IMG/VR virus record: IMGVR_UViG_3300033142_001406
Coordinates: 1-64,000 of that record
Length of the DNA: 64,000 bases
Direction: 5' to 3' (one strand)
Source of the DNA: a virus
The notes beneath the pieces are model-generated. The model was not told the DNA's origin. It did not search any database and saw nothing but the letters and a program-made list of their open reading frames with translations. The translations under genes were made by a program, and so were the position numbers. Within the stretch, counting starts at the first letter, position 1, and the number at the start of each line of letters is the position of its first letter. This document shows, in pieces, positions 1,005 to 61,054 of this stretch.

Positions 1005-1764
1005 CTTGTCCTCCTTTGGGTCTGTCGTTTGTTAAAGAGCGGTGTTGTCCAACTATATATTGACACAACCGCGCAGTGGTTGCAACCTTGATAGCCCCCA
1101 ACCGCGCGCCTTCTGGCGCGATTAGCGGGATAACCGCGTCAAAATAGACAGATTTGGAGAGGGTCTTATTTCGGGTTAGCTGCTATTTTCAAGCCAAATC
1201 TCCGAAAAGCTCCGCTTTTCAAAGATTAGGTTCAACTGTTTTCTCCTAATAGCTCCCAATTGCGGTGCAATTGATAGAGTCGAATACTGAGAGATAGATC
1301 AAGGGATAGGGAGTGAACAGCCGCACTGGGGTTGAGATTAGACCGCAGGCGGTGGTGAGCGTCAAAAAAATAAGATAGGGGTCAAAGGCTGTAGAGGGGA
1401 CAAAAGCGGGGTATTGTTGAGGATTTGAGGGGATTGGGATTATTGAGGGCTGTGGTTCTCTCTTTAAAAGGTCGGTGTGGCCACTACATATTGTGGTAGG
1501 CAGGCAGGGCACACACTATATAGTGTGGTAGTGTGTGGATCTGGTCCGTATTACCCCGGCTTGACTAATACCGGGGATGGGATCTATAAGGATAACAGTC
1601 AGTTAAGGGATGATAACGTGTATTTAGGGTAAATACGGAAGGCAAGGGGGGGCCTCAAAAAAGGACCCACCAAGGACTTGGAGCGATCCGCTCCCGCTAT
1701 ATAGGAGGACCACAAAGATATTTTCAATTAATCTGATCACTCCTATAACGTACCGTATTTATTA
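1005..1764. other. 760-nt noncoding region rich in inverted repeats
   Basis: No supported gene. It contains several perfect palindromes or hairpins: a 10-bp palindrome GGTTGCAACC at 1078-1087; CGCGCC-TTCT-GGCGCG at 1105-1120; CACACTATATAGTGTG at 1512-1527; and GGAGCG-ATC-CGCTCC at about 1681-1695. CATATTGTGG at 1487-1496 resembles the box found at three promoters elsewhere in the window. On the minus strand, TTGCAA followed after 17 nt by CAATAT, near 1056-1085, is a weak promoter candidate for the gene ending at 681. The region could be regulatory or a replication or packaging site; the sequence does not decide. Confidence 0.5.
1512..1527. promoter_or_regulatory. 16-bp perfect palindrome, candidate operator
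   Basis: CACACTATATAGTGTG is perfectly self-complementary. It sits between related GTGG-containing sequences (CATATTGTGG at 1487 and TGTGGTAGTGTGTGG just after). Palindromes of this size fit a dimeric winged-helix or Xre-type regulator, and many are encoded nearby. The operator role is an inference. Confidence 0.4.
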
Positions 1765-2082
1765 CTATTTAAGAAATTCTTTATAATAACTCTCCCCTTT
1801 TTTTGTGAGAGTGATTATATTCGCCCGAGTGTCCCGAGTGTCTGGACGCGCTTGTAATAAACCAGATCTCCTCTGCCTATCTCTTGACCGGGCGCAACAC
1901 GCGCCTAAACCTTTGAGATTTCTACTGCAAGACGCTCCGGTAATCCCCAAATCTTTTTTAATATCAGATTGATATACCGATCCTCTCTCAGCCGTATACA
2001 GAAATATTGTCAATTGAACCAACTCCTTTATAAGAGTGTTGTTGGCGTGCGCCAACACTTCAGTTATATTTCTATATTCCAC
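1765..2082 (-). CDS. MarR-like winged-helix DNA-binding protein
   Basis: 105 residues, GTG start with Shine-Dalgarno GGAGG 6 nt upstream. N-terminal helices lead into a recognition-helix region (IKKDLGITGASCSRNLKGL, residues about 40-60), then a MarR-type wing with GLLQARPDTRDTRA and the terminal signature LTKKGESYYKEFLK. The D..D.R spacing in the wing is typical of the MarR family. It is the best MarR match among the many small paralogs here and is closest in its ending to the gene at 60611-61054. It is separated from the main array by the plus-strand gene at 2147 and probably has its own promoter near 2090-2140. Target unknown. Confidence 0.75.
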   Translation of the reverse strand: MEYRNITEVLAHANNTLIKELVQLTIFLYTAERGSVYQSDIKKDLGITGASCSRNLKGLGACCARSRDRQRRSGLLQARPDTRDTRANIITLTKKGESYYKEFLK

Positions 2083-2146
2083 CCAGAACCTCCTTTTTTT
2101 TTTATTATTTACAAAATAAATCTAATAGTTTATAGATCTACGTATT

Positions 2147-2728
2147 ATGAAACCAAGTGAAAATATCAAAGCCTTTGAGTCAGCGGAGCTGCCTCCTTCA
2201 GTAATCAAAAAGATGAAGAAGCTAGAAAAATATCTTAAATCACTCTCGAAGACTTCGCAAATATCCCCTATTTTCGAGCGAATACACCGCGTTCTGGATG
2301 ATTTTATGGCTAAACGGGTGAACAGATTCCTTTCTTGCAGAAAGGGTTGCAGCTACTGTTGTAATAACGCCGTGGAGATATTGGCGCTTGAGGCTGTCTA
2401 TATTTCAAACAAAACAAATACCGAGTTCCGAATCGGGAGACACCCCGTCGACCACTCCTCACCGTGTCCGTTTTTGAAAGACAATCTCTGCTCTATTTAC
2501 GAGTATCGTCCGTTGGTTTGTCGAACCTATGGTTCTCTCGAACCCTCTGAAATCTGCGAAGATCCAACCGCAACCCACGCTCTTCACAACTACAAATCGA
2601 GTGATTTTTGGTTTAAGACAGTCTTTACTTGGCTCTACTTTAACAGCCGGGATATAAAAACAGACGAGGGCACTTTAGAAACTGGCAAAGACATCCGGGA
2701 ATGGTTTGGCACTATCAAACCATCTTGA
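2147..2728 (+). CDS. YkgJ-family cysteine-cluster protein
   Basis: 193 residues, ATG start. It has the layout of the YkgJ-type metal-binding family: CRKGCSYCCNN at about residues 64-74, then CPFLKDNLCSIYEYRPLVC and a further Cys (EICED). Such proteins are thought to hold a zinc or iron-sulphur cluster through these cysteines; their biochemical role is poorly known. It is the only plus-strand gene in the first 14 kb, bounded by a bidirectional terminator at its 3' end, so it resembles an independently expressed accessory gene (moron). The Shine-Dalgarno is weak. Its base composition does not stand out and it also lacks CATG, so recent acquisition is not obvious. Confidence 0.8.
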   Translation: MKPSENIKAFESAELPPSVIKKMKKLEKYLKSLSKTSQISPIFERIHRVLDDFMAKRVNRFLSCRKGCSYCCNNAVEILALEAVYISNKTNTEFRIGRHPVDHSSPCPFLKDNLCSIYEYRPLVCRTYGSLEPSEICEDPTATHALHNYKSSDFWFKTVFTWLYFNSRDIKTDEGTLETGKDIREWFGTIKPS

Positions 2729-2742
2729 GTGGTTTAGCTTTT

Positions 2743-2768
2743 AAAAACCACGTTGTGGTTTAGTTTTT
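2743..2768. terminator. Bidirectional rho-independent terminator
   Basis: AAAAACCAC-GTT-GTGGTTT followed by AGTTTTT, with A-rich sequence on the other side. It lies between the convergent genes at 2147-2728 (+) and 2760-3005 (-) and overlaps the stop codon of the latter. Confidence 0.7.
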
Positions 2769-3005
2769 GATTTTCCCTAAAACACCTTCAACCATTCTAT
2801 CAACCAACTTATCTTTATCTTCGCTGGAGCTGTCTAGTTCAGCAATATATCTCAGTATTGATATAAACTCACCGAGGGACAAAGGGATAGTTCCCCTCTC
2901 TTTTCTTGCGTAGTTTGATCTCTCTTTTCCTATAACCTTCGCAAGCTCCTCTTGAGTTATACCCTGCTTTTTACGGGCATCCTTAAGATATTCAAGGTTG
3001 GGCAC
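2760..3005 (-). CDS. Xre/Cro-type helix-turn-helix regulator
   Basis: 81 residues, GTG start with Shine-Dalgarno AAGGGGG. A canonical HTH_3 domain fills residues 4-55: LKDARKKQGITQEELAKVIG, then RSNYARKERGTIPLS, which gives the two helices and turn of Cro/C1-type proteins. The C-terminal 25 residues are charged (SSSEDKDKLVDRM) and probably dimerise. It is the last gene of the long minus-strand array. It could be a lysogeny or array regulator, but no peptidase or sensor domain is attached. Confidence 0.8.
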   Translation of the reverse strand: MPNLEYLKDARKKQGITQEELAKVIGKERSNYARKERGTIPLSLGEFISILRYIAELDSSSEDKDKLVDRMVEGVLGKIKN

Positions 3006-3016
3006 TATAACCCCCT

Positions 3017-3325
3017 TTAGTTAGTCCCTCTGTTTGGGTCAGCTACAAGCTGCCCACTCAAATAAAAAAGAAGAGTGCAACTCTTCGATCCCAGCTCTGT
3101 CAGTTTGTAGATATCCCGTTGACGGAATAACGTCTCTATTAAACCTATATCCTCTAATCTCTCTAAACAGTCTTCCAAGTCGTCGCTCTCCCAGAGTGAT
3201 CGCAACGTTGAGAAGGAGGCGGGTTGGTTATTGCAGATTATTACTGATAGCGGTACGAGTTGAGTATCTAATTTGAAGTACGCGTTTAGATAACTCAGAA
3301 CCTTGTTTACGTCGTTGAAATCCAC
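3017..3325 (-). CDS. Winged-helix paralog of the left-arm array
   Basis: 102 residues, GTG start. Helical N-terminus, recognition-helix-like stretch (LEDCLERLEDIGLIETLF), and wing strand with YKLTELGSKS. The arrangement (start of domain, helix, GLIE, strand, LTELG) repeats in its neighbours. It is separated by 1 nt from the upstream gene. Predicted DNA-binding; no further function visible. Confidence 0.65.
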   Translation of the reverse strand: MDFNDVNKVLSYLNAYFKLDTQLVPLSVIICNNQPASFSTLRSLWESDDLEDCLERLEDIGLIETLFRQRDIYKLTELGSKSCTLLFYLSGQLVADPNRGTN

Positions 3326-3326
3326 T

Positions 3327-3587
3327 TTACTTATTCTCCTCTTCGTTTAATTTTTCCAAGACTCCCCACCCCTTACCACTAAGAACAACAGTCGAAGCGT
3401 TTACCCTCTGGACAAGCTCCCAACTGAATAAGTGGGTTATTGTCCGGCTTATATTATATGCGGGTAAACTCTGAAACTCTGTATAAATATCAGATATCTC
3501 AACCTCTCCTTGTTGTAAACTAATATATTTGAGTACAGATTTATTCGATCTGCCTTGTACTCCTAATCGCTCCTTGGGGTCGCTCAT
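3327..3587 (-). CDS. Winged-helix paralog of the left-arm array
   Basis: 86 residues, ATG with Shine-Dalgarno GGAG 9 nt upstream. N-terminal SNKSVLKYISLQQGEVEISD reads as helices 1-2, ISRTITHLFSWELVQRV as the recognition helix, and VVLSGKGWGVLEKL as the wing. The ORF before it in the array starts with TTG (3916) and the one after with GTG (3325), so start codons vary from gene to gene. Predicted DNA-binding. Confidence 0.65.
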   Translation of the reverse strand: MSDPKERLGVQGRSNKSVLKYISLQQGEVEISDIYTEFQSLPAYNISRTITHLFSWELVQRVNASTVVLSGKGWGVLEKLNEEENK

Positions 3588-3601
3588 ACTGTTTAATCTC
3601 C

Positions 3602-3916
3602 TTATTCCAGACAGCGTAAAGGAATCAGCTTCGCCAGTGGCGTTCTATCATCCGATATAATAATCTCGTAAACTTTAAGGCCCTTATCGGTTAGAATTAT
3701 AGTCATCCTCTCGCCCCCCGCTTCGAGGGGTGCTACTATATCACTGATATACCCACTTACAACGAGAGTCCTAATAAGGTCGTCTGACTTGTTTTTATAC
3801 TCCGCTACAAAACTGTGAGGAGACTCTGCGATATTAAGAAAAGCCGCCAATAAGCCCGCGTTATCGTTAAACAAGAAAAGAGCTGAATCTAAATTACTTT
3901 TTATATCAACCGACAA
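3602..3916 (-). CDS. Winged-helix paralog of the left-arm array
   Basis: 104 residues, TTG start with Shine-Dalgarno GGAG at good spacing. It begins with helices (LDSALFLFNDNAGLLAAFLNI), has LIRTLVVSGYISDIV at the recognition-helix position, and the wing motif MTIILTDKGLKVYEIII. The C-terminal extension DDRTPLAKLIPLRCLE is not shared with neighbours. Predicted DNA-binding. Confidence 0.65.
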   Translation of the reverse strand: MSVDIKSNLDSALFLFNDNAGLLAAFLNIAESPHSFVAEYKNKSDDLIRTLVVSGYISDIVAPLEAGGERMTIILTDKGLKVYEIIISDDRTPLAKLIPLRCLE

Positions 3917-3920
3917 TTAT

Positions 3921-4088
3921 TTAGTCTCCTATCGGATAGTGGATTTTCTCGTACTCCGCCACTTCGTCTATACGAGCTTCGAACTCATCCCGGAGAGGGT
4001 GCCCCAAGGGCTTCCCCTCGACAGAATCCCAAATCTCTTCAATACGGACAAGAGCCTTCTCGTACTCTTCTTCGGTCTGTAAAATCAT
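3921..4088 (-). CDS. Stand-alone HigA-antitoxin N-terminal-like domain
   Basis: 55 residues, ATG with Shine-Dalgarno GAGAGGA. The sequence MILQTEEEYEKALVRIEE, then GKPLGHPLRDEFEARIDEVAEYEKIHYPI, follows the N-terminal segment of HigA-type antitoxins (COG5499-like), which have TE.DYE.AL..I..L, a GTPEGDELD linker and EAYE..HYPI. In that family this helical piece precedes an Xre helix-turn-helix; here the gene stops right after HYPIGD, so the DNA-binding half is missing. No HigB-type toxin is next to it. It may be a remnant, a decoy or a toxin-neutralising mini-protein. Confidence 0.6.
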   Translation of the reverse strand: MILQTEEEYEKALVRIEEIWDSVEGKPLGHPLRDEFEARIDEVAEYEKIHYPIGD

Positions 4089-4089
4089 A

Positions 4090-4350
4090 CTATTCCTCTC
4101 CCAGAAGAGCTTCGCAAAGAGCCTCACCTAAATCGGTGAGGCCTATTGTATCGTTTACGAACTCTTCTATAATAAGTTGTTGAAATAGTTCGTAAAGACC
4201 CCTTGTAATATGTTCGTTACTTAAGTTCTCTATATCGTTATAAATAGAACCAATAAATACTGGCTTATCCCCCTCCTTTATCAGTTCCAGTATAAATCTA
4301 TTACAGATAACGGCTTGCTCTGCAAGCCCCAAGTTAAATTCAGATTTCAA
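4090..4350 (-). CDS. Winged-helix paralog of the left-arm array
   Basis: 86 residues, TTG start with Shine-Dalgarno AAGGAG about 8 nt upstream. It overlaps the upstream gene's stop by 11 nt, suggesting translational coupling. Helices (AVICNRFILELIKEGDKP), recognition-helix region (HITRGLYELFQQLIIEEFV) and wing TIGLTDLGEALCEALL. Predicted DNA-binding; no ligand domain. Confidence 0.65.
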   Translation of the reverse strand: MKSEFNLGLAEQAVICNRFILELIKEGDKPVFIGSIYNDIENLSNEHITRGLYELFQQLIIEEFVNDTIGLTDLGEALCEALLGEE

Positions 4351-4636
4351 TTGTACAGTCTCCTTTATTTACCCACGCTTCCAGCGTGATCTCCCCTTCG
4401 TAGAACTTCTCTAAGCACTCCCGGACCATACTCCCGACCTCTTCAGCCTCTTCGTCTGTCAGCGGGTTGTAGACCCACTTTGCTGCTTTAAAACTGATTC
4501 TGGTTCGGTTGGTGGTTATCCTAACTGCCCGTATTGTTACGTAATCTCTGAACCCAAGGTGAATCTGAATCTTATTTAAATCCGTTCGTGAGATTGGTGG
4601 TTGTGTGACAACCACTACAACGTAATCGGTTAGCAT
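4340..4636 (-). CDS. Hypothetical protein, paralog of 5584-5871
   Basis: 98 residues from ATG 4636 (AAAAGG 5 nt upstream); a GTG two codons earlier is possible. It starts with a beta strand (DYVVVVVTQ) and continues with a second strand pair (YVTIRAVRITTNRTRISFK) and a C-terminal helix and strand (EEAEEVGSMVRECLEKFY). It aligns over its whole length with the protein at 5584-5871 (shared VRI.....T.FRIS..GWKY pattern). An alpha-beta fold is likely; function unknown. Confidence 0.6.
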   Translation of the reverse strand: MLTDYVVVVVTQPPISRTDLNKIQIHLGFRDYVTIRAVRITTNRTRISFKAAKWVYNPLTDEEAEEVGSMVRECLEKFYEGEITLEAWVNKGDCTIEI

Positions 4637-4638
4637 AC

Positions 4639-4935
4639 TCACCTTTTCTTTGTTACCCGTTGAAATTCTTTATATAAATCTTTACCGTGCGCCGTGAGAA
4701 CAAGCTGATTTGCAATACTCTTTTTCTCGGAAACTTGCGCGAATACAAGATCCTTATTTGCTAATTTTACCGCACACTTACAAACAAGCGCGTTGTTCAT
4801 CCCGATTAGTTTGCAGATATCCGGCTGGTGGACAACTGTGTTGGCCCCTACGCAAAGGAATACGTTGAACTGGTTGATATTCCCCCCGAAATAGTTGGAG
4901 ACAAACTGGAGTGCTTCAGTAATATTACCTCTCAT
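4639..4935 (-). CDS. Winged-helix paralog of the left-arm array
   Basis: 98 residues from ATG 4935, one base after the upstream stop. The open frame extends further upstream but that part overlaps the preceding gene. ITEALQFVSNYFGG, INQFNVFLCVGAN, a recognition helix near ICKLIGMNNALVCKCAVKL, and wing QLVLTAHGKDLYKEFQRV. It shares its opening pattern (helix, YF/HF, QF..FL) with the genes at 4937 and 5294. Confidence 0.65.
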   Translation of the reverse strand: MRGNITEALQFVSNYFGGNINQFNVFLCVGANTVVHQPDICKLIGMNNALVCKCAVKLANKDLVFAQVSEKKSIANQLVLTAHGKDLYKEFQRVTKKR

Positions 4936-4936
4936 A

Positions 4937-5290
4937 TTATTGTAACTCTTTCTTATAATTATAGATAAATTCAAGCAGCTTATTATATATCCCCACACCC
5001 TTTGGGGTGAGTTCCAATACAGATATATTGGGATATTCTGGATGCTTACGGGTTCTGATATAATCGAGCGGCTTTTGACCAGCAACAATCTTATAGTTCT
5101 TTGCTGGGCCTAACGATCTGATTATCTTACGTATTTTCTGCTCCCCCACGTCTATAGCAGCCTTTACCCCGCTCCGTAAAACCATCCCGTTCTCCGCAAC
5201 GTAAATAAAGAGCAAGAACTGCGTAACGCCGCCCTCAGTATGAAAATAGCGGTGTCCGAATTTGAGTGCTATAAGCAAATCAGAATCCAT
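4937..5290 (-). CDS. Winged-helix paralog of the left-arm array
   Basis: 117 residues, ATG. The pattern RYFHTEGGVTQFLLFIYVAE closely matches the gene at 60611 (RFQQFLIFLYVAE). It is followed by a recognition-helix region (KAAIDVGEQKIRKIIRSLG), a long basic wing (YIRTRKHPEY) and SVLELTPKGVGIYNKLLEF. Together with 5294, 6986 and 60611 it forms the longest, most MarR-like subgroup. Confidence 0.7.
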   Translation of the reverse strand: MDSDLLIALKFGHRYFHTEGGVTQFLLFIYVAENGMVLRSGVKAAIDVGEQKIRKIIRSLGPAKNYKIVAGQKPLDYIRTRKHPEYPNISVLELTPKGVGIYNKLLEFIYNYKKELQ

Positions 5291-5293
5291 ACT

Positions 5294-5587
5294 TTAAACC
5301 CCGACAAACTCTTTAAAGTTTTTTAAGTAATCCACACCCTTGGGTGTGAGGGAGGCTCCTTTTCTTCGTAGGTCGTCTTCATCCACTCTCTCTTCAATCA
5401 GTTTCTCTTCAAACAGTCTGAGGACTGCCTTGCTGACGGAACTTCTTGATAAGTTTAGGACTTTTTCTAATTCTACGCGGGATATCTCTCTTGCCTCTGC
5501 TATATATAGGAACACTCTCAGCACACTTATCGTACCAGAAAAGTGTTTGTCACACCATCCAACTGCCAGTTCTAAATTACAAATCAT
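5294..5587 (-). CDS. Winged-helix paralog of the left-arm array (MarR-like)
   Basis: 97 residues, ATG. WCDKHFSGTISVLRVFLYIAEA forms helix 1, LEKVLNLSRSSVSKAVLRLFEEKLIEE the helix-turn-helix, and DEDDLRRKGASLTPKGVDYL the wing. The SRSSVSKAVLRL recognition helix is the cleanest example in the array and is typical of MarR/IclR-type winged helices. The gene overlaps the next upstream gene by 4 nt (ATGA type). Confidence 0.75.
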   Translation of the reverse strand: MICNLELAVGWCDKHFSGTISVLRVFLYIAEAREISRVELEKVLNLSRSSVSKAVLRLFEEKLIEERVDEDDLRRKGASLTPKGVDYLKNFKEFVGV

Positions 5588-5871
5588 ACGAACCCCTTTA
5601 CAATTTCAACCTTGTACTTTAATACTTTTTCGTCCAGCCGGTCTTCCATACACGCTATAAACAGTTTCTCAACCCGGCACACTTCGTTCAGATCCAGCGG
5701 AAGGTACTTCCACCCCTCGGAGCTGATACGGAACTCAGTTGTTGTCTCTGCGATCCTAACGGATCTGTTGATCTTATACCCGCCAAGCAACTCGAAGAAA
5801 TATATAAGCATATCAATTATTACGGGTTCAAGTTTGATCCCGGTTAGGGTTATCGTTACGTATTGGTTGAT
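5584..5871 (-). CDS. Hypothetical protein, paralog of 4340-4636; probable AUC start
   Basis: The first ATG (5811) would give 75 residues, but the frame stays open upstream and the extra residues (NQYVTITLTGIKLEPVIID) align with the N-terminus of the paralog at 4340-4636. The extension stops matching at an ATC codon at 5871, which has GAGGAG about 10 nt upstream, so I place the start there (95 residues). It overlaps the upstream gene by 44 nt. Alpha-beta protein of unknown function. If AUC is not used, the protein starts at ATG 5811 without a good Shine-Dalgarno. Confidence 0.55.
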   Translation of the reverse strand: MNQYVTITLTGIKLEPVIIDMLIYFFELLGGYKINRSVRIAETTTEFRISSEGWKYLPLDLNEVCRVEKLFIACMEDRLDEKVLKYKVEIVKGFV

Positions 5872-6172
5872 AAATCCGACTCTCCTCTTTTTTGTACTTT
5901 TCTTCCAGAACTACAAGCTTTTCCCAATCTTGGAGAGTCTTAACGTAGTTTGTAGTGTTTAAAATCCTAAATCCGACGTAGATTATGCAGAACGCGCAAA
6001 GTAGTACTGCGTAGGATGTGACGTAATCTTTACCAACGTAAAACAACCTAAGACTAACCCAAAGGAGAAACACACCTATAGCGGGAAGAATATTCCCGAC
6101 AAGCGCACCTTCCTTAATCCTTTTTGGAATCTGTCTCTTAGAGTGTTCCAGCTCCGCTTTTGCGTTTATCAT
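5828..6172 (-). CDS. Small membrane protein, two transmembrane segments
   Basis: 114 residues, ATG. Residues about 23-46 (GALVGNILPAIGVFLLWVSL) and about 54-71 (SYAVLLCAFCIIYVGF) are hydrophobic helices, with a short charged loop between them. The N-terminus is basic (KRQIPKRIKEG) and the C-terminal tail is charged, so both ends are probably cytoplasmic. No family recognised. It is one of two such proteins in the array (the other at 10466-10810) and could anchor a complex or act in superinfection exclusion, which is speculative. Confidence 0.6.
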   Translation of the reverse strand: MINAKAELEHSKRQIPKRIKEGALVGNILPAIGVFLLWVSLRLFYVGKDYVTSYAVLLCAFCIIYVGFRILNTTNYVKTLQDWEKLVVLEEKYKKEESRIYQPIRNDNPNRDQT

Positions 6173-6422
6173 CCTCTCTCATCTCCCTTACACTCCAAGC
6201 TAATCCCAAAAGATAACGGTCACTTACTGGCTCTTTGTCCAAGAGTCTCTGTATCGTTTCGGAGCAAACTTCCGCGAGGCGGTTTCCCCTCCGGCTAAGG
6301 GCGCAACTGCTGTAAGATTCTTGATAGATTAACAATTCCCGAAGCGAAAGCTTCTGAAGATATTCCAAAGCTTGTAACGCCGCAGGATGCGGCTCCGTAT
6401 CTTTAAGCTGTCCTATACCCAT
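6138..6422 (-). CDS. Hypothetical helical protein
   Basis: 94 residues from ATG 6422, which lies 6 nt from AAAGGAGG; an ATG two codons earlier is too close to it. Predominantly helical and charged: LQALEYLQKLSLRELLIYQESY, then CSETIQRLLDKEPVSDRYLLGLAWSVREMRED. No motif recognised. It overlaps the genes on both sides. Confidence 0.55.
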   Translation of the reverse strand: MGIGQLKDTEPHPAALQALEYLQKLSLRELLIYQESYSSCALSRRGNRLAEVCSETIQRLLDKEPVSDRYLLGLAWSVREMREDDKRKSGAGTL

Positions 6423-6708
6423 CCTCATCCTCCTTTAACACTGCAACCGTGAGTGTTAGGTGTATAATATAGATCTCACACCCCAATTCAGTTATACTTA
6501 TAAGGCCGCAAGCGTCCCCGCAAATATAACCAGATCTAAGCAAGAAGCCCAGAACCTCGCAAACTTTTATAGCCCCGAACCTATCGAATTCCTTATATAT
6601 ATTGGTAGCTGATACGGTGTTGTTCTGGTAAAGGCACCCCAGCACTTGGAGCTTTTGCAAATCACCTTTAAAGAATTTTAACAGATAATCTCTGTACTGA
6701 TCTCTCAC
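6403..6708 (-). CDS. Winged-helix paralog of the left-arm array
   Basis: 101 residues, GTG start sharing bases with the upstream TGA. DYLLKFFKGDLQKLQVLGCLYQN closely matches the adjacent gene at 6705 (DFLIDYFDGDVWKLNCLGHI), so the two are a recent tandem pair. Middle helix VCEVLGFLLRSGYI and wing GLISITELGCEIYII. The last 20 residues are unique. Confidence 0.65.
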   Translation of the reverse strand: MRDQYRDYLLKFFKGDLQKLQVLGCLYQNNTVSATNIYKEFDRFGAIKVCEVLGFLLRSGYICGDACGLISITELGCEIYIIHLTLTVAVLKEDEDGYRTA

Positions 6709-6989
6709 CTTTCTTGTCCCCCGTTACAATATAACGTCTCGTATTCTTTATACAATTCTTCACCCTTCGGGGTGACGTAAAGCTGACTCCTTTCTTGGGG
6801 TTCTATCATATAACCGTTCCTAAAGAGAAAACTGATTATCTCACTCGTTCTAAGCGTCCCAATATATTTGAGATACTTATAAATATCAGCCCCCGTAAAC
6901 TCGCCCATCCGGCAAATATGACCAAGACAATTTAACTTCCACACATCCCCGTCAAAATAATCTATAAGAAAATCGTTGTAGTCCTTCAT
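6705..6989 (-). CDS. Winged-helix paralog of the left-arm array
   Basis: 94 residues, ATG with Shine-Dalgarno GGAGG 5 nt upstream. Sister of 6403-6708: same opening, ADIYKYLKYIGTLRTSEIISFLFRNGYMIE for the DNA-binding helices, wing SQLYVTPKGEELYKEYETL. It overlaps the next gene's stop by 4 nt. Predicted DNA-binding. Confidence 0.7.
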   Translation of the reverse strand: MKDYNDFLIDYFDGDVWKLNCLGHICRMGEFTGADIYKYLKYIGTLRTSEIISFLFRNGYMIEPQERSQLYVTPKGEELYKEYETLYCNGGQER

Positions 6990-7342
6990 ATTTCCTCCAA
7001 ACTTTCTGTAAGTTCAAGTAACTCTTCGTAAAGTTTCTTTCCCTTTGGGCTAAGAAAAATAACGTTGTGTGCAGAGTGTATTTTAGAGGGTTTGCTGTTT
7101 ATATACCCCAAACCCTTCTGTTTTTTTGAGTCTGTCTTTGGACAACTGTCCCGGTGCCCATTCCCAAGCATCCCCACCGCTCTCCCGGCTGCTGCCCGAC
7201 TTATTGAGAGTATTATAAACACTTCACTTTGTTTAATCTTCCCAGATTCAGCAACTAAGCAAAACACCCGAAAATACCCAACCTCGTTGCGAAAGTGCTC
7301 CGCACAAAAATCTAATATTATCTGTACTTTTTCTAAGGTCAT
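6986..7342 (-). CDS. Winged-helix paralog of the left-arm array (MarR-like)
   Basis: 118 residues, ATG. ILDFCAEHFRNEVGYFRVFCLVAE, then ILSISRAAAGRAVGML (recognition helix), an extended wing with a Cys and many Lys (SCPKTDSKKQKGLGYI) and NVIFLSPKGKKLYEELLEL. It belongs to the longer-wing subgroup with 4937 and 60611. Overlaps the neighbour by 4 nt. Confidence 0.7.
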   Translation of the reverse strand: MTLEKVQIILDFCAEHFRNEVGYFRVFCLVAESGKIKQSEVFIILSISRAAAGRAVGMLGNGHRDSCPKTDSKKQKGLGYINSKPSKIHSAHNVIFLSPKGKKLYEELLELTESLEEI

Positions 7343-7638
7343 ACCCCGACTATCGCCCTTATATATTTCATATTATTATCGTTAATTCCCTCGGGGAACG
7401 TTCTTAAAAGAGTCGTAAGCCCCGGCTCAGTAACCGAAAACTCTGTTACTACGCAACTATCAAAAGCAACTGCTATAATAGAGTGGAGTTCAATATAGGA
7501 GTGAACAATCAGCTCTTCTAAGAGTTCGTTTGATTCCTCCCCGAACAGAACCACAAACTCGCGGATTGGTATGCTGTTGATTGCGTTATAATCTTCAATA
7601 ATTTCAGATAGTTTCTGAAGTGCTGTCGCTTTAAACAT
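7339..7638 (-). CDS. Divergent winged-helix paralog
   Basis: 99 residues from ATG 7638, which follows a GGGGGGAAGG stretch; the frame extends upstream but that part overlaps the preceding gene. FKATALQKLSEIIEDYNAIN, IREFVVLFGEESNELLEELIVHSYIELHSI and FSVTEPGLTTLLRTF correspond in order to the helices and wing of the neighbours. Similarity is weaker than for the others, so DNA binding is probable but not certain. Confidence 0.55.
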   Translation of the reverse strand: MFKATALQKLSEIIEDYNAINSIPIREFVVLFGEESNELLEELIVHSYIELHSIIAVAFDSCVVTEFSVTEPGLTTLLRTFPEGINDNNMKYIRAIVGV

Positions 7639-7933
7639 CCTTCCCCCCCTCAATCTCAATATAGGCCGCCACACCCTTGGGTTTAAGTCTGATATGTCGC
7701 AAGCGCCTATCCTCAACTATAAACCCAAAGGTGTGGAGTTCTACAATAGCCTTCCTAAGTTCTATCGGGTGTACTTCGTCGGCAAGATCGTTTAACAGCT
7801 TTGGGATCGTAACCGCTGAATTATAATAGAGAAAGTTGAGGACCAGTTTGCTGGCCCAAAGCTCTCTATCCAGCTTATCGAGCCACTCCTCAATCTCCGC
7901 TGGACTCTTCTTTATTCCGTTTGTCCGGCTCAT
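7631..7933 (-). CDS. Winged-helix paralog of the left-arm array
   Basis: 100 residues, ATG just after GGGG. It opens with a basic/acidic helix (SPAEIEEWLDKLDRELWASK) found also in the next upstream gene (EEPAEWFKKLEAEGKAF), then IPKLLNDLADEVHPIELRKAIVELHTFGF, and wing HIRLKPKGVAAYIEIEG. With 7930 it forms a second tandem pair. Confidence 0.65.
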   Translation of the reverse strand: MSRTNGIKKSPAEIEEWLDKLDRELWASKLVLNFLYYNSAVTIPKLLNDLADEVHPIELRKAIVELHTFGFIVEDRRLRHIRLKPKGVAAYIEIEGGKDV

Positions 7934-8220
7934 ACCCCGTTCTCTATATCTTCGAATATTCCAAGTTCAATCGCCCCCTTGGGCGTGATATTGAGATCAG
8001 CAGAAAGCCCCTCAGAGCCTTTGATCAGCCCTGCAACAAAGATGGAAGCGGTGGTGGTGCCCAACAGATAGGGGGATATATCCGGGAACTCCTCGATAAT
8101 TTCGACGCTGGTAACGTCTTTATTATCTCCAATAAACCTAAGCACTTCCACGAACGCTTTTCCTTCTGCCTCTAACTTCTTAAACCACTCAGCGGGTTCT
8201 TCAAGATTTTCAGAATTCAT
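7930..8220 (-). CDS. Winged-helix paralog of the left-arm array
   Basis: 96 residues, ATG; ATGA-type overlap with the gene upstream. N-terminal helix shared with 7631, middle region TSVEIIEEFPDISPYLLGTTTASIFVAGLI, wing LNITPKGAIELGIFED. Acidic overall, which is unusual for a DNA-binding protein; the fold call rests on the shared spacing. Confidence 0.6.
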   Translation of the reverse strand: MNSENLEEPAEWFKKLEAEGKAFVEVLRFIGDNKDVTSVEIIEEFPDISPYLLGTTTASIFVAGLIKGSEGLSADLNITPKGAIELGIFEDIENGV

Positions 8221-8570
8221 ACAAGCAACTCCCGGTTAACCTTTTTGATTTGTTCCAGTTTATAAAAGCAGAAAGTGTCCCTCAGCTCCCGGTTTCGCTT
8301 CGTATCTTCTAAAGCCAGTTCCAGCGCGTCGGGGGACACGTCGACCGTGTTTATCTTAACAATTGATTTCCTTACTTCTAAGATCCCAGCAACGCTGATC
8401 AGCTCAAGATCGAAAAGAAGGGAGATATTAACGAGAGACTCTTTTCCGTATAACTCAGTGACTTCGCTTACCGGAATCTCTACAATTCGCCCAAGCTTGT
8501 TGCAGAGCAAACAGAGCTTGTGGACGATCTGCCCAACGAAGTGGTGGTGAGCTTGTCGTGTTGTGTGCAA
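8217..8570 (-). CDS. Hypothetical protein, possible degenerate winged helix
   Basis: 117 residues, TTG start with GAGGGGG upstream. It opens with a His-rich stretch (MHTTRQAHHHFVGQIVHKL). IPVSEVTELYGKESLVNISLLFDLELISV could be the DNA-binding helices, and VDVSPDALELALEDTKR takes the place of the usual LT.KG wing ending. The N-terminal Cys pair (LCLLC) and charged C-terminus are not shared. Membership of the array family is tentative. Confidence 0.5.
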   Translation of the reverse strand: MHTTRQAHHHFVGQIVHKLCLLCNKLGRIVEIPVSEVTELYGKESLVNISLLFDLELISVAGILEVRKSIVKINTVDVSPDALELALEDTKRNRELRDTFCFYKLEQIKKVNRELLV

Positions 8571-8584
8571 TTATCCAACCCCCT

Positions 8585-9241
8585 CTAAATCTCTTCTGCT
8601 TTGCAGTACTCAGAAAGTTTAAAGTAAAATCCACGTCCCTTGGACGTTAGTTTTAAGATTGAAGTGTTGGGGGAATCCGGGCGGGGTTCGCTCTTTATTA
8701 AGCCCCTCTCGACAAGCTTGGCAAGCGTTGTGCTCAAAATCTGAGTGCTGGTTTTACTCTTAAGGCACAACTGGATTCTCTCGATACCAGCACCCTTAGC
8801 AGCACCAATAAAGACAAACGCTATAAAGGAGTTGAACCCGCCTCCTATTTTAGAAAACCAATAAAAACAAGCCTTTGAGATATCTCCGTATAGGCCACTA
8901 TTATCCTCGATAATCGAGTCGGACATATCAAAGTAGAACTTATCTCCCGCTTTTGTTAAGTCTACGAGTTTTTTATTACGCACTCTCTTGCAAGGTGTTT
9001 TAAAGACCAGACCACTTCCGATTTGCTTTTTTCCACACATCTCATACTTGTAAGTTATAGGCCCAAGCCGCTGAAAAGTATGGGTTATTCCGCTTAGACC
9101 GATACCAGTTTCCCTCGAAACGTCAGACGTATATTTCAGTTTATCTGCGTCCCCGGTGCTCAGAAAGACTAATAATTGAGTTAACTCACAGCCGTGATTC
9201 TCTTTCCAATAATTAAGAGCACTACCGATATCACCTATCAC
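8585..9241 (-). CDS. Double winged-helix protein (two fused array domains)
   Basis: 218 residues, GTG start, twice the length of its neighbours. Residues 1-105 and 118-218 each hold a full copy of the domain. The first has IGSALNYWKENHGCELTQLLVF and the ending LVDLTKAGDKFYFDMSDS. The second has ISKACFYWFSKIGGGFNSFIAF and the ending ILKLTSKGRGFYFKLSEY. Fusion of two tandem genes is the simplest origin. A covalent dimer could bind an asymmetric operator. Overlaps the upstream gene by 11 nt. Confidence 0.7.
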   Translation of the reverse strand: MIGDIGSALNYWKENHGCELTQLLVFLSTGDADKLKYTSDVSRETGIGLSGITHTFQRLGPITYKYEMCGKKQIGSGLVFKTPCKRVRNKKLVDLTKAGDKFYFDMSDSIIEDNSGLYGDISKACFYWFSKIGGGFNSFIAFVFIGAAKGAGIERIQLCLKSKTSTQILSTTLAKLVERGLIKSEPRPDSPNTSILKLTSKGRGFYFKLSEYCKAEEI

Positions 9242-9689
9242 TCTTCACCTTCCTTTCTGTTAGTATCTTTTCAAGTGTACTATAAACAGACTGTTCGATA
9301 ACTTGCCGTAACCACCCACCTATATTTGCTTGGTTGCCCAATATTCTAAGCTGGACCGCTGTTATAATCTGCTGGGTTTCGTGATCCTTTAGGGGACACT
9401 CAACCCCGGTAATTTCTTTTAATCGGGCTTCATTCATACAACCAGAATCCTCCGCGTATAACTGTTCGCCTTTATTGAGCATACCCAAGTGGTCTGTCTC
9501 AAGAGCTTCTGCCAACCTTCTTTGCGTAACCCACCGCATACAACTCTTACCAAGTAGGAAATTTGAAGTAGAGGTTTTAGGTACCCCGGAGATTTTGTGA
9601 AGTTGTGTAAGGGATAGCTTCCGCTTATTCAACTCGTACCGGAGTGCTAATCTGAAAAAATAAACAACGTCGTGATCACCGTTTATCAC
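9231..9689 (-). CDS. Xre-like helix-turn-helix protein with C-terminal extension
   Basis: 152 residues, GTG with GGAGGAG upstream. Residues 8-75 carry an HTH domain of the same type as the next three genes: YFFRLALRYELNKRKLSLTQL, GVPKTSTSNFLLGK, and the ending LETDHLGMLNKGEQLY. The remaining 75 residues are extra and mostly helical (IGGWLRQVIEQSVYSTLEKIL), perhaps for oligomerisation. It is the longest of four tandem paralogs. Confidence 0.65.
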   Translation of the reverse strand: MINGDHDVVYFFRLALRYELNKRKLSLTQLHKISGVPKTSTSNFLLGKSCMRWVTQRRLAEALETDHLGMLNKGEQLYAEDSGCMNEARLKEITGVECPLKDHETQQIITAVQLRILGNQANIGGWLRQVIEQSVYSTLEKILTERKVKSDR

Positions 9690-9933
9690 TGTTCTTCTCC
9701 TCCAACAAATCTCTACCGAGATTTAGAACCTCTAAAACAGTCATCCCGAAATAATCAGCAAGTGCTTCTTGCAGACTGAAACCGAGACCATCCCGGTCAC
9801 CCCTAACAAATCTATAAATATTACCCGCACTTACATCCATAGCAAACGAAATAGAGTGTGGATTTAGCCCCGCTTCGTCTAACAGTTGAATAATAGCTGT
9901 CCTATAATAGCCCTCAAGTGTTGGTTTTTTCAC
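9676..9933 (-). CDS. Small HTH protein, NLG-type tandem family
   Basis: 85 residues, GTG. GYYRTAIIQLLDEAGLNPHS, then FAMDVSAGNIYRFVRGDRDG as the helix-turn-helix, and ALADYFGMTVLEVLNLGRDLL. The ending YFG.T.LE.LNLG..L is shared with 9935 and, more loosely, with 10183 and 9231. Domain order suits a Cro-like DNA-binding protein. It overlaps the gene downstream by 14 nt. Confidence 0.65.
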   Translation of the reverse strand: MKKPTLEGYYRTAIIQLLDEAGLNPHSISFAMDVSAGNIYRFVRGDRDGLGFSLQEALADYFGMTVLEVLNLGRDLLEEKNSDKR

Positions 9934-9934
9934 C

Positions 9935-10195
9935 CTAAGCTCTCTTCTTGAATTTAGACCGATTTGCTGATAGTTCAGCCCCCAAATTCAGCAGCTCAAG
10001 ATGGGTAAGTCCAAAATATTCAGCTACTTTTTGTTCGACGTCCAAACGCAGCCAATAAGTTCCCCGCAGAGCAGCGCTTAAATAGGTCGGTGCTAAATCA
10101 AGATCCCGGCACACTTGAACGCCCAATATTCCGGTTTCCTTGAGAAGATAATTTAGAGCTTTTTTGTAGTAATTAATTATAGTTACTTTTCGCAC
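9935..10195 (-). CDS. Small HTH protein, NLG-type tandem family
   Basis: 86 residues, GTG with AAGGA upstream. NYYKKALNYLLKETGILGVQ, LDLAPTYLSAALRGTYWLRL (helix-turn-helix) and VAEYFGLTHLELLNLGAEL. Nearest relative is 9676-9933. The C-terminus is basic (NRSKFKKRA). Confidence 0.65.
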   Translation of the reverse strand: MRKVTIINYYKKALNYLLKETGILGVQVCRDLDLAPTYLSAALRGTYWLRLDVEQKVAEYFGLTHLELLNLGAELSANRSKFKKRA

Positions 10196-10452
10196 AATTC
10201 AATTCCTTCCACCTCGTTATTAATATGTAGTTGCTCTCCGAGATTAATCATAGCTAAGTGCGAGGTATCAAAAACTCTTGCAAGCCTCTCTTCAATCTCG
10301 TAAGTTGTATTTTTATTCTCTTGGAAAGCCCCGTAAATAGCGGAAGCGGCTGTCTTTGTTTTTTTTGTGAGGTAAGCTCCGTTGTAGCCCTTCTCTTTCG
10401 TCAAGTGTTTAAGTGCTATTCTAAAATAATCGTGAATATCTAATTCTTTCAA
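10183..10452 (-). CDS. Small HTH protein, NLG-type tandem family
   Basis: 89 residues, TTG with AGAGGA upstream. DYFRIALKHLTKEKGYNGAY, KTKTAASAIYGAFQENKN and LARVFDTSHLAMINLGEQL. It is the first of the four tandem relatives to be translated and is acidic at its C-terminus. Confidence 0.6.
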   Translation of the reverse strand: MKELDIHDYFRIALKHLTKEKGYNGAYLTKKTKTAASAIYGAFQENKNTTYEIEERLARVFDTSHLAMINLGEQLHINNEVEGIELCEK

Positions 10453-10465
10453 TTTCCTCTTACTC

Positions 10466-10810
10466 CTATTTATTATTATTATTATATTTTAGCAATTCGG
10501 ATTCTATTTCTGCTGGGGATAACTTACCATCCCGCACTTTCTCCAGTAGATTCATACTCGCTATAAAAGAGGTCTGTTTTACAATCCTCTCTCTCTTTTT
10601 TGAGGCGTTCCAAGTTGAAAACATATTCCCGAGCATACAAACAAAAGTAAATACGCAGTAATCAGTTAAACCCAACGAGAGATATTCTTTTGTCCCGTGT
10701 ATCGCAAAAAGGGGAGTAAGAAAAAGAGTGGTAACAAAGAAGATATTATCCAGATCAAGAAGCTGTCTTATTGATAACTCCTTCTTAAATAAGCTCTTGA
10801 TATTTCTCAC
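10466..10810 (-). CDS. Small membrane protein, two transmembrane segments
   Basis: 114 residues, GTG sharing bases with the upstream TGA. Two hydrophobic helices at about residues 23-38 (IFFVTTLFLTPLFAI) and about 49-66 (YCVFTFVCMLGNMFSTW), followed by a basic stretch (SKKRERIVK) and a helical cytoplasmic tail ending in five residues of Asn/Lys. Similar in size and topology to 5828-6172 but not clearly homologous. No family recognised. Confidence 0.6.
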   Translation of the reverse strand: MRNIKSLFKKELSIRQLLDLDNIFFVTTLFLTPLFAIHGTKEYLSLGLTDYCVFTFVCMLGNMFSTWNASKKRERIVKQTSFIASMNLLEKVRDGKLSPAEIESELLKYNNNNK

Positions 10811-10992
10811 TTTACGAGTCCCACTTTCTGCAAGTGCTTAACTATATTGAGGCAAGATCTTACTGCCTCACTTGCCAGAGCCTCTTCTGGGTGTGGTTTA
10901 GGTTCAATATTCCAACTCACGTTTGCTACTTCGTCGCAAACGTCTGTAATCTCGATTGTTGCTTTAAATATCCTCTTGTTCTCTTCGTTCAT
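10807..10992 (-). CDS. Small hypothetical protein
   Basis: 61 residues, ATG with AAGGA 7 nt upstream. A beta-like first half (FKATIEITDVCDEVANVSWNI) and a helical second half (EEALASEAVRSCLNIVKHLQ) ending in a basic tail. Overlaps the upstream gene by 29 nt. No function visible. Confidence 0.5.
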   Translation of the reverse strand: MNEENKRIFKATIEITDVCDEVANVSWNIEPKPHPEEALASEAVRSCLNIVKHLQKVGLVK

Positions 10993-11167
10993 CTTCGTTC
11001 CTTTTATCGACTAATTTAGCAAGTAAAAGAGCAATTATAGTTAACGTTGGCGATTCGCTCAAAGGCAGATTAAGAATATTCGGGGGTCCCTCGAAACAAA
11101 TATCGAGCTTCCCGTCCGGCAGATCTGTAAGAATTACTCTGACGGGTGTGTCTTTGTTAATACTCAA
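10964..11167 (-). CDS. Small hypothetical protein
   Basis: 67 residues, TTG with GGAGGA about 7 nt upstream. Strand-rich N-terminus (PVRVILTDLPDGKLDICFEG) and a hydrophobic helix (LTIIALLLAKLVDK) before a charged tail (RNEDERREQEDI). The hydrophobic part is short for a membrane span. Unknown. Confidence 0.5.
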   Translation of the reverse strand: MSINKDTPVRVILTDLPDGKLDICFEGPPNILNLPLSESPTLTIIALLLAKLVDKRNEDERREQEDI

Positions 11168-11181
11168 AAAGTGTCCTCCTC

Positions 11182-11451
11182 TTAGTCCAGAAATTCACTT
11201 AATATTTCTAATAAATTCAGCCCTTTTTCAGAAGGGATGCCCTTGGGCTTTTCAAACAGCGGGACCACCAACCCCGGTTTTATAAATCCTCCTTTTAAGA
11301 GGTTTGTCCTCGCTTCCGTATAATCAACGGTCTCGCAAGCTCCCCGCGAGAACAGATCGTCGATATTGGGAGTGTCGTCTCTAAACCAACTTAAAAACAC
11401 GATAATCTCCCAATTTGAAATCTTATCAGTGGAAGATTGCTCCTTCAGCAC
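11182..11451 (-). CDS. Probable winged-helix paralog
   Basis: 89 residues, GTG with AAAGGAG 7 nt upstream. SNWEIIVFLSWFRDDTPNIDDL, YTEARTNLLKGGFIKPG (helix then the turn GFI/GLI seen in neighbours) and GIPSEKGLNLLEILSEF, which has the KG..LL pattern of the wing ending. Weaker match than most. Overlaps the first gene of the array by 26 nt. Confidence 0.55.
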   Translation of the reverse strand: MLKEQSSTDKISNWEIIVFLSWFRDDTPNIDDLFSRGACETVDYTEARTNLLKGGFIKPGLVVPLFEKPKGIPSEKGLNLLEILSEFLD

Positions 11452-11890
11452 TTTCGGCTCCTTTCGCAGCTTCTCTTTCTTTTTCTGCCATACTTGAGCG
11501 GAAACCTAAGTATGACCCTCTATTTAGAGTTATATCATACACGCCCGGCTCTTTTGTTGAGATAGTCCCAAACAACGGTGTGAGTACAAATTGACCCTCT
11601 TCCTCCATATGAGCCTCCGAGCAGGTTTGAACAATAGCAAAGAATATATTGTTGTATTCTTCGATAGTTAGTCCGTCTTTTTCTATTCTATCCGAGATAT
11701 CAATCCGGTAATTAAACTGCTTAGTTGCTACAACTTGTTCAAGGAGTTTTTGGAGAATACTAGCACCCACCTCGCAAAGCTCCGGGCCAAAAAAGGACAT
11801 CTGAACCTCCCCTTCTGGAGCTTCTTCTCTCATCTTTTTTAGATCTTCTCGCGAAAGCTCTTTGTCTATTACTTTTAATTTAACGGTCAT
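11426..11890 (-). CDS. Hypothetical protein, first gene of the left array
   Basis: 154 residues, ATG with AGAGAG upstream. Acidic N-terminal helix (LSREDLKKMREEAPEGE), a central mixed region, and a strand-rich part (GQFVLTPLFGTISTKEPGVYD), then an Ala/Glu-rich tail ending AIFH. No family recognised. As the promoter-proximal gene it sets the 5' end of the array transcript. Confidence 0.6.
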   Translation of the reverse strand: MTVKLKVIDKELSREDLKKMREEAPEGEVQMSFFGPELCEVGASILQKLLEQVVATKQFNYRIDISDRIEKDGLTIEEYNNIFFAIVQTCSEAHMEEEGQFVLTPLFGTISTKEPGVYDITLNRGSYLGFRSSMAEKEREAAKGAESAEGAIFH

Positions 11891-12218
11891 TCCTATCTCT
11901 CTTTCTCCAGATATTATATTATATTATCTCTGATAGTATTCAGTGGTATTACTTTTCTTCCGTTGTCCAAAATAACTCCCAAATAGTCTATAAGCAGTAT
12001 CGGAGATACGTATACAAGTCAAGCACTTTCTCGGTATGCGCCGACGCAACTTAAGAACATCCGTATGGGCGCATTCTGGAGACTTTACCACACTCGCGTA
12101 TACATACGTATAGGCCCTGCTGCTTAAGTTCCCAGAACAGCGCGTGAGCGGGTCTTACGGGAGTATAAAGACTATCCCAGAACCCACGCTACGCGCCCAA
12201 TTCTTCCTAACACTATAG
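11891..12218. other. Noncoding region, candidate promoter for the left array
   Basis: No supported gene. On the minus strand TATAATATAAT at about 11911-11925 would serve as a -10 element for the gene starting at 11890; I see no good -35 at the usual spacing. Further upstream are short inverted repeats: AACTTAAG near 12050 and CTTAAGTT near 12126, and tracts such as GTATAC and ACGTAT. A structured leader or regulator-binding zone is possible. Confidence 0.35.
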
Positions 12219-12467: not shown

Positions 12468-12490
12468 TCAAAATATCTTTTTAAAGAAAC

Positions 12491-13423: not shown

Positions 13424-13432
13424 CTGCTATAG

Positions 13433-13501: not shown

Positions 13502-13544
13502 TCACTCTTAATATTGGTGAGCAACTTTTTGGGTTAATTGCCGA

Positions 13545-13564
13545 CACCCACCGCAAGGTGGGTG
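13545..13564. other. Hairpin with GCAA tetraloop
   Basis: CACCCACC-GCAA-GGTGGGTG, an 8-bp perfect stem closed by a GNRA-type loop. There is no T tract, so it is not a standard terminator. It may be part of the Rep-gene control region or a structured RNA. Confidence 0.45.
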
Positions 13565-13591
13565 GTTCAAAGTACAGCGGCCAAACTGACT

Positions 13592-46195: not shown

Positions 46196-46225
46196 TATAT
46201 ACAACATACGCGGCGCGTATGTCAA
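46196..46225 (-). promoter_or_regulatory. parA promoter with embedded palindromic operator
   Basis: On the minus strand: -35 TTGACA (46225-46220), 18-nt spacer, -10 TATATA (46201-46196). The spacer is filled by CATACGCG-G-CGCGTATG (46205-46221), a perfect 8-bp inverted repeat with a 1-nt centre that also overlaps the -35 box. Autoregulation by ParA's partner or control by a repressor is likely. The box TATATTGTGGAT overlaps the -10. Confidence 0.7.
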
Positions 46226-60610: not shown

Positions 60611-61054
60611 TTACAGCTCAGAAGCTTTTAAAAGTTTCTTGTAGTAGTTCTCACCTTTTTTAGTCAAGTACACCAACACCCCCTTGTTGTAAGTCTTTGG
60701 ATGCGGGGAAACCCCGAGCAAACCCTTCCCACCCTTTTTAGTATACGTCCTCGAAGCCAGCTCTGTCACTGTACTGAAAGTACTAAGTGCTTTAATAAGC
60801 CTGCTGACGGCAGGCTGGGACAGATCGAAGTGGTGTTTTATATCATACTGTGTCGTCGGGGCATTCTCAGCGACGTAAAGAAAGATCAAGAACTGCTGGA
60901 ATCTGTCCCCAAAGGTGCCCCAACCCATAGTCAGAATTTTAAAAAAACTTCCGTCGAGTTTTGGGCCTTTGTATCTCAAATCTTCAATTATTTCGTTTGC
61001 TTCGCTGTTTTTCTTGTCGGCCTTTTGGGATCTACTTAAAGCTAAAGGAGACAT
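60611..61054 (-). CDS. MarR-like winged-helix protein related to the left-arm array
   Basis: 147 residues, ATG with AGGA upstream. RFQQFLIFLYVAENAPTTQY, LSQPAVSRLIKALSTF (recognition helix), an extended basic wing (TYTKKGGKGLLGVSP) and VYLTKKGENYYKKLLKA. Same subgroup as 4937-5290 and 6986-7342, and the same ending as 1765-2082. It sits 50 kb from the array, on the other side of the virion genes, just after the acidic DNA-binding-like gene. Confidence 0.75.
   Translation of the reverse strand: MSPLALSRSQKADKKNSEANEIIEDLRYKGPKLDGSFFKILTMGWGTFGDRFQQFLIFLYVAENAPTTQYDIKHHFDLSQPAVSRLIKALSTFSTVTELASRTYTKKGGKGLLGVSPHPKTYNKGVLVYLTKKGENYYKKLLKASEL

Follow-up and report, generated by a model that had tools for sequence, protein, structure and literature searches.

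TubR and AspA are small winged-helix proteins that bind plasmid centromeres and are typically encoded by one gene beside its motor, and the N-terminal domain of T4 MotA is also a winged helix. The part of PMC6755090 that deals with this MotA domain describes its binding to sigma70 region 4 by means of a basic/hydrophobic groove and an acidic/hydrophobic surface. A MarR-like regulator of phage LUZ100 shares a transcript with the integrase and has been proposed to control lysis or lysogeny, according to the relevant section of PMC10134795. Regulators can also be more numerous: the figures for transcription factors within a survey of jumbo phages give a median of 2 specific transcription factors per phage (range 1–15) and, for Bacillus phage G, some 35 copies of a zinc ribbon (PMC7824862). 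These figures roughly bear out the statement, made in a preliminary description of the DNA studied here, that one to three regulators are usual in a phage. This DNA (the window) is a stretch of 64,000 nucleotides, positions 1–64,000 of the 68,137-bp virus record IMGVR_UViG_3300033142_001406. Mostly in one leftward operon, it carries an array of at least 16 winged-helix domains that fall into a basic, MarR-like class and a diverged, acidic to neutral class.

Eight domains form one family by all-against-all blastp: 1765, 4639, 4937, 5294, 6986, the two domains of 8585, and 60611 (genes are named by their lowest coordinate in the window; Table 1). The blastp expectation values (E) among small proteins given throughout are those for a set of 33 sequences. 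In leave-one-out runs each of the eight domains was recovered by the profile of the other seven, with E from 1.1e-9 to 8.3e-23, and the top-scoring decoys of the eight runs had E values of 0.39–1.5; the decoys were 182 other open reading frames (ORFs), 14 other early proteins and 660 shuffled sequences. The cut-off of Pfam MarR_2 (27 bits) was passed by 5294 alone (31.6 bits), with 60611 just under it (25.9), weak matches for 1765 and 8585, and none for the remaining array genes. The family phrog_9665 was matched at E <0.01 by six of the seven MarR-like genes and by 8585 at 0.019. The DxR wing motif, a MarR signature, is not general in this set, D.R being present in two of the eight MarR-like domains (1765 and 5294) and in one of the 11 diverged ones (7631).

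Eight more domains, those of 3017, 3327, 3602, 4090, 6403, 6705, 7631 and 7930, are diverged and supported by sequence. With the profile of the eight MarR-like domains, only four of them (6705, 3327, 3602 and 3017) score better than any decoy; 6403 and 7930 lie within the range of the decoys, and the matches listed do not include 4090 or 7631. When the profile is extended with 6705 and 6403, the domains of 3327, 7930, 3017 and 3602 rank above all decoys. The group profile of the eight diverged domains (A6) matches the MarR-like family by hhalign with a probability of 94.2% (E 1.1e-7), whereas the two controls, unrelated proteins of the operon, reach 0.7% and 0.2%. Its best matches in the PDB are QsrR, BlaI/MecI, HxlR, YodB, MarR and TubR (E from 1.2e-4), and the profiles of both halves of the array match solved MarR-type proteins. 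Judged by these comparisons, the diverged members match the family as a group and are weak one by one. Three pairs among them are recognized by blastp: 6403/6705 (E 2.4e-12), 3327/4090 (E 2e-5) and 7631/7930 (E 2.7e-4). The first and the last had been reported as tandem pairs and are thereby confirmed; family profiles, the A6 match and these pairs together support the previously described array of paralogous winged-helix genes with local duplication.

Structure prediction of each member had been proposed, and two members, neither of them from the basic MarR-like class, were modelled with AlphaFold2. The predicted structure of 7930 has a predicted local distance difference test score (pLDDT) of 89.8 and the element order H-H-H-E-E-H, which is that of MarR-type winged helices. 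Comparison with solved MarR, PadR, AspA and TubR chains and with the T4 MotA N-terminal domain gave VIA Z scores of 11 to 12 (AspA 11.9, TubR 11.5, several MarR chains about 12). In a Foldseek search of the PDB this model had no match reaching E 1e-3; the N-terminal domain of T4 MotA came first, at 1.7e-3. The alignment used for 7930 was made of ten other array sequences (A3), three MarR-like rows among them, and the presence of other array members as rows may bias the models of both 7930 and 7339 towards the winged-helix fold. The model of 7339 (pLDDT 86) contains a wing hairpin, with helices 2 and 3 forming one long helix (25–45), and its best VIA Z score is 8.0 (TubR), a level flagged by the tool as one that may be common. 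Compared with the family by hhalign, 7339 and 8217 together reach 0.2%, that is, no sequence link; on its model, 7339 is probably a degenerate winged helix. From the 18 winged-helix domains claimed initially, 16 are thus retained by sequence and 7339 by predicted fold alone, while 11182 is not (hhalign 4.1%).

Table 1. Winged-helix array and other features of the window (wH, winged helix; pI, isoelectric point; LOO, leave-one-out; A6, group profile of the diverged domains)
Position	Strand	Feature	Evidence and remarks
1512..1527	.	Perfect palindrome CACACTATATAGTGTG	Candidate operator; imperfect copy at 1482-1493, 32 bp apart
1765..2082	-	MarR-like wH, basic, pI 9.7	Outside operon; DxR-type wing motif; LOO E 8e-23; phrog_9665 E 9e-13
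2760..3005	-	Cro/CI-type HTH_3 protein	Last gene of packed run; Pfam HTH_3 36.2 bits (cut-off 23)
3017..3325	-	Diverged acidic wH, pI 4.4	Recognition-helix charge -7; above decoys; part of A6
3327..3587	-	Diverged wH, pI 5.8, wing shortened to 11	Pair with 4090 (E 2e-5); extended profile; A6
3602..3916	-	Diverged acidic wH, pI 4.7, wing 19	Above decoys; extended profile; A6
4090..4350	-	Diverged acidic wH, pI 4.2, net charge -12, wing 11	A6; weak DUF505 match under cut-off
4639..4935	-	MarR-like wH, basic, pI 9.5	Start shifted to ATG at 4935; LOO E 1e-16; blastp
4937..5290	-	MarR-like wH, basic, pI 9.6	LOO E 6e-18; phrog_9665 E 3e-5
5294..5587	-	MarR-like wH, near neutral, pI 6.6	LOO E 4e-12; MarR_2 31.6 bits
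6403..6708	-	Diverged acidic wH, pI 5.3, tandem copy of 6705	Blastp with 6705
6705..6989	-	Diverged acidic wH, pI 4.9	Blastp with MarR-like 4639 (E 4e-4); 8-domain profile E 0.007
6986..7342	-	MarR-like wH, basic, pI 8.8	LOO E 4e-19; phrog_9665 E 3e-8
7339..7638	-	Probable degenerate wH, acidic, pI 4.4	Start shifted to ATG at 7638; predicted fold only
7631..7933	-	Diverged wH, neutral, pI 6.8, tandem copy of 7930	Blastp; A6
7930..8220	-	Diverged acidic wH, pI 4.1, net charge -12	AlphaFold2 pLDDT 89.8
8217..8570	-	Possible degenerate relative of 7339, absent from the preliminary list	Blastp with 7339 (E 0.03); no other support
8585..9241	-	Two MarR-like wH domains fused in one 218-aa chain, pI 8.4 and 9.5	LOO E 1e-13 and 1e-9
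9231..10452	-	Four XRE/Cro-type paralogs adjoining the wH array, same operon	9231 (N-terminal part), 9676, 9935, 10183
11182..11451	-	Member of the preliminary list, wH not established	Hhalign against diverged profile 4.1%
46204..46222	.	Perfect palindrome ACATACGCG-G-CGCGTATGT, 9-bp arms	Between divergent parA and integrase; candidate operator
60611..61054	-	MarR-like wH beside primase gene	LOO E 1e-17; phrog_9665 E 1e-10

The two groups differ in charge. The isoelectric point (pI) of the eight MarR-like domains is 6.6–9.8 (at least 8.4 in seven of them) and their net charge 0 to +9, whereas the eight supported diverged domains have a pI of 4.1–6.8 and a net charge of -12 to 0 (exact Mann-Whitney p 3.1e-4 for pI). 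With all 11 diverged candidates included p is 6e-4 for pI and likewise for the charge of the recognition helix, which is +1 to +3 in the MarR-like domains and -7 to +1 in the diverged ones, the limits of recognition helix and wing being set by hand. Against a baseline of 35 other phage proteins (median pI 5.9), the MarR-like domains are shifted up (p 0.004) and the diverged ones down (p 0.03). The five homologs from other phages are all on the basic side (pI 7.8–9.9); therefore, the basic state is the likely starting point and the acidic class is probably derived from it. An apparent order along the operon, with basic blocks first and acidic ones after them, was also considered and not used, the runs counted by hand being within chance.

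The wing follows the same division. Measured between the residue pair that follows the recognition helix and the LTxKG motif, its span is 17–18 residues in all eight MarR-like domains; among the 11 diverged domains it is 11–13 residues in seven, 17 in one and 19–21 in three. The preliminary statement that the members diverge and yet keep the wing is therefore true of the MarR-like class, where length is constant, but not of the seven diverged domains with a shortened wing. Fifteen of 18 array genes (the 17 listed initially plus 8217) have a wing-end motif, [LIVF][ST]xxG, within their last 45 residues, compared with none of 14 other early genes and five of 98 decoy ORFs, a count that is partly circular since the motif was derived from the same data.

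The operon consists of 30 tightly packed minus-strand genes, from 11890 leftward to 2760. All 29 junctions measure at most 16 nt, and overlapping starts and stops, as noted before, occur at 17 of them, eight by exactly 4 nt. The ORF positions given initially stand, except for two starts shifted to internal ATGs (4639–4935 and 7339–7638). The description of the array as one operon holds for 2760–11890, which contains 14 of the 16 sequence-supported domains in packed order, but not for 1765, 677 nt past the last gene, or for 60611, beside the primase gene in the replication region. The four XRE/Cro-type genes next to the array are paralogs by blastp, four of their six pairs having E <=5e-7, with 1.6e-4 for 9231/9935 and 0.89 for 9231/9676. 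Two small operon proteins of no assigned kind (4340–4642 and 5584–5811, minus strand) form a weak paralog pair (blastp E 0.001), and a plus-strand gene between 1765 and the operon (2147–2728) encodes a putative metal-chelating protein with a CxxCxxCC motif. The non-coding 12282–12427, between the 12491 gene and the operon, contains three short hairpins resembling terminators, two of them on the minus strand and one on the plus strand. Promoter-like sites in 1–14500 are not in excess (29, against 25.2 in shuffles).

The record has an identical direct repeat of 114 bp at both ends (1–114 and the record end), and therefore it is most likely a complete genome. In this tailed-phage genome, genes for terminase, portal, major head and tail proteins run rightward, and leftward genes encode a family-A DNA polymerase, a DnaB-type helicase, a primase and an anaerobic ribonucleotide reductase. 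The portal is about 30% identical to those of HMO-2011-type podoviruses (best match Pseudomonas phage Rollin, 33%). Because a tyrosine integrase (46179–47387; PF00589 106.3 bits, cut-off 27.1) and ParA (45255–46193; PF13614 132.9 bits) are encoded, the phage is probably temperate, possibly with a phage-plasmid state. The gene after parA (44840–45502, minus strand) encodes a product whose C-terminal part resembles, by eye, another winged helix, and which might be a ParB-like partner; no Pfam match was found for it. The 12491 gene, looked at for plasmid-type replication, has only an HTH_36 match below the Pfam cut-off, and the Rfam scan found tRNA alone. The genes at 49795–52421 (minus strand) encode the anaerobic ribonucleotide reductase NrdD and a radical-SAM protein, its probable activase, which suggests an anaerobic host; the NrdD gene as a query had no match among genome contigs.

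The profile search for similar arrays in other phages, which had also been proposed, returned isolated copies. The MarR-like profile (A1), which matches eight places in the window genome, matches only a single one in each of the annotated Autographiviridae HTVC200P, RHEph01, CRP-113 and S39-C11 (E 8.5e-12 to 1.1e-15), and therefore it is able to see distant members. Kin contigs were recovered by means of the DNA polymerase, portal and helicase; none was obtained with the capsid protein or ParA as queries. Many of the searched records are fragments whose zeros are weak evidence, the only ones of comparable size being G002 (65 kb; DNA polymerase 46% identical) and G007 (69 kb). G002 has one copy (L004 3426–3758), upstream of an ORF (L004 4189–5004) that aligns by eye with the primase of the window, the same place as 60611; G007 has none. 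Paralog pairs at E 1e-4 among all ORFs of at least 50 aa number zero in G002 and one in G007. Across seven records, A1 found eight places in the window genome, one in G002 and none in the other five, and it found none in 45 of the 80 records related by DNA polymerase, the 35 loci left out being mostly the shortest; its run on 20 records, four of them repeats, gave the matches in Autographiviridae and none in G007. As single or zero copies are found in the kin, the array is not common to the group as sampled. With single genes as queries, 1765 was found in four records and 5294 in eight, at one place each; for 5294, seven plasmid records had one place each, and no relative was found in viral contigs. 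Tblastn of 60611, 6986 and 3327 against phages gave no match at the limits used.

Among the nearest known counterparts is the single MarR-like regulator of integrase-bearing Autographiviridae, a group that also includes LUZ100: in the four records above it belongs to the same profile family, it is a winged helix of the basic side and it occurs in phages of temperate type. In the four autographiviruses, however, the one copy is directly upstream of the integrase and RNA polymerase genes, whereas here eight MarR-like and at least eight diverged domains lie in the operon and beside the primase gene, and the position directly upstream of the integrase is occupied by ParA, with no MarR gene. We know of no acidic winged-helix class in the MarR systems of Autographiviridae. 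The expansions of jumbo phages are similar in that a small domain of DNA-binding type has multiplied within one phage lineage, but they concern large genomes and, in phage G, a different fold; the present genome has 68 kb, a winged-helix fold and a basic/acidic split. T4 MotA offers a winged helix that serves protein contact and is the top PDB Foldseek match of 7930; it is, however, one gene with a second, DNA-binding domain, and the match, a likeness of fold, falls short of E 1e-3. TubR and AspA resemble 7930 and, for TubR, 7339 in fold, with the Z scores given above, and ParA is encoded here; in contrast to their place beside the motor gene, the distance to parA on the circularised genome is about 14 kb for 60611 and about 25 kb for the operon, and binding of a centromere by the acidic members is unlikely. 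No phage array of this kind was found in the titles and abstracts of the open-licence literature searched. The multiplication of transcription factor-like genes in phages is already known; what is new here is the fold, the basic/acidic split and the density, with 16 or more winged-helix domains and four Cro-type paralogs packed into 68 kb.

Direct observations are the paralogy, the arrangement of the operon, the split in charge and wing and the single copies of the comparators. The reading that we prefer, whose chance of being right we put at about even, is a mixed system of basic DNA-binding regulators and acidic, protein-binding derivatives of the same fold. A phage MarR-type regulator would have been expanded by gene duplication, mostly inside one leftward operon, and its paralogs would then have split into the two classes. 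Duplication is clear for 6403/6705 and 7631/7930 and is the simplest reading for the remaining members. The basic class (eight domains, two of them fused), with its positive recognition helix and wing of constant length, would most likely bind operators of the phage genome and so control lysogeny, replication or the expression of early genes. The diverged class (eight firm members, up to 11), having lost most of its positive charge and with the wing shortened or altered, would most likely have given up DNA binding of the usual kind and act by protein contact. These acidic partners might modulate the basic class, for example by forming mixed dimers unable to hold the operator; alternatively, they might bind host proteins. 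A narrower version of this scheme, in which basic members set the operators, co-translated acidic short-winged paralogs act as dominant-negative partners or antirepressors through mixed dimers, and the output is set by partner choice within one operon, we consider unlikely.

Several points weigh against the mixed system. Charge is an indirect proxy for DNA binding. The MarR-like 5294 is near neutral. In addition, 3327, 4090 and 7631 retain Arg or Lys in the recognition helix, so that loss of DNA binding need not be complete and some acidic members may still bind DNA. A tree of the eight MarR-like domains and five outside homologs has no branch at the support threshold; none of the 200 bootstrap trees unites the window set in one clade, and 5294 is placed, weakly, beside two of the outside homologs. 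Therefore, repeated acquisition of MarR-like domains is possible beside duplication in place. Neighbouring genes are only marginally more alike than in permuted order (p 0.051).

The candidate operators are the palindromes at 46204–46222 and 1512–1527. By our own reading of the bases, the first would lie in the spacer of a promoter facing parA; it has no second copy at <=3 mismatches. Repeated operators were sought with three patterns and only CACTATATAGTG, associated with the second palindrome, was enriched, with seven occurrences at <=2 mismatches in the window against 1.45 expected. The fused pair of 8585, together with nearby palindromes, hints, suggestively only, at a homodimer on a palindromic operator. 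The winged-helix fold, the temperate context and several intergenic palindromes would suit a system in which all members are operator-specific DNA-binding repressors, whether as a combinatorial code or as many immunity specificities, both of which had been suggested initially. This is rather improbable, given the scarcity of repeated palindromes (46204 single, one enriched pattern of three) and the acidic or neutral diverged half, with its altered wings, recognition-helix charge of -7 to +1 and net charge of -12 to 0. All four initial suggestions presuppose, wholly or for the most part, members that bind DNA, which suits the eight MarR-like domains but suits the eight supported diverged ones badly. 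The idea of every member as a DNA-binding regulator was dropped on these charge data, which also argue against an immunity repressor in every gene; a combinatorial code, unlikely as an all-DNA-binding one at a diverged pI of 4.1–6.8, survives only if recast as DNA-binding members plus non-DNA-binding partners. The same facts, an acidic or neutral set with wings mostly of 11–13 residues, make it unlikely that the whole array serves as DNA decoys or as a chromatin-like coat of many small DNA-binding proteins, which were further initial suggestions; the fold is also that of the centromere-binding protein AspA, and its presence in many copies would fit such a coat, but about half of the array is acidic or neutral, and this already disfavoured option is scarcely credible.

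Rather unlikely, though less so, is a cassette for host takeover or counter-defence, in which acidic winged helices would bind RNA polymerase, a sigma factor, SMC/MukBEF-type or defence proteins and the genes would form an accordion driven by an arms race. Small, acidic, fast-diverging genes in one packed operon are what such a cassette would look like, and the best PDB Foldseek match of 7930 (E 1.7e-3) is a domain that contacts sigma70 region 4, as described in the corresponding part of PMC6755090. However, this match is short of E 1e-3 and many other winged-helix proteins score alike, basic members share the operon, and the host target is purely hypothetical. Decaying duplicates or chance ORFs of little function were considered and dropped as very improbable: pairwise identity is very low and some candidates have degenerate or missing fold evidence, but the frames are open, the junctions packed (with the eight exact 4-nt overlaps), the fold is kept despite deep divergence and the wing of the basic class is constant.

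Small regulator-type genes seem seldom to be expanded to high copy numbers in phages whose genomes are of this size. The basic/acidic split makes a testable claim, namely that a DNA-binding fold has been turned into a protein-binding one, perhaps repeatedly, inside one operon. If this is true, the array would let the loss of DNA binding by a transcription factor be followed through a natural series of cases, and it might represent a regulatory or host-takeover network of a kind new to phages.

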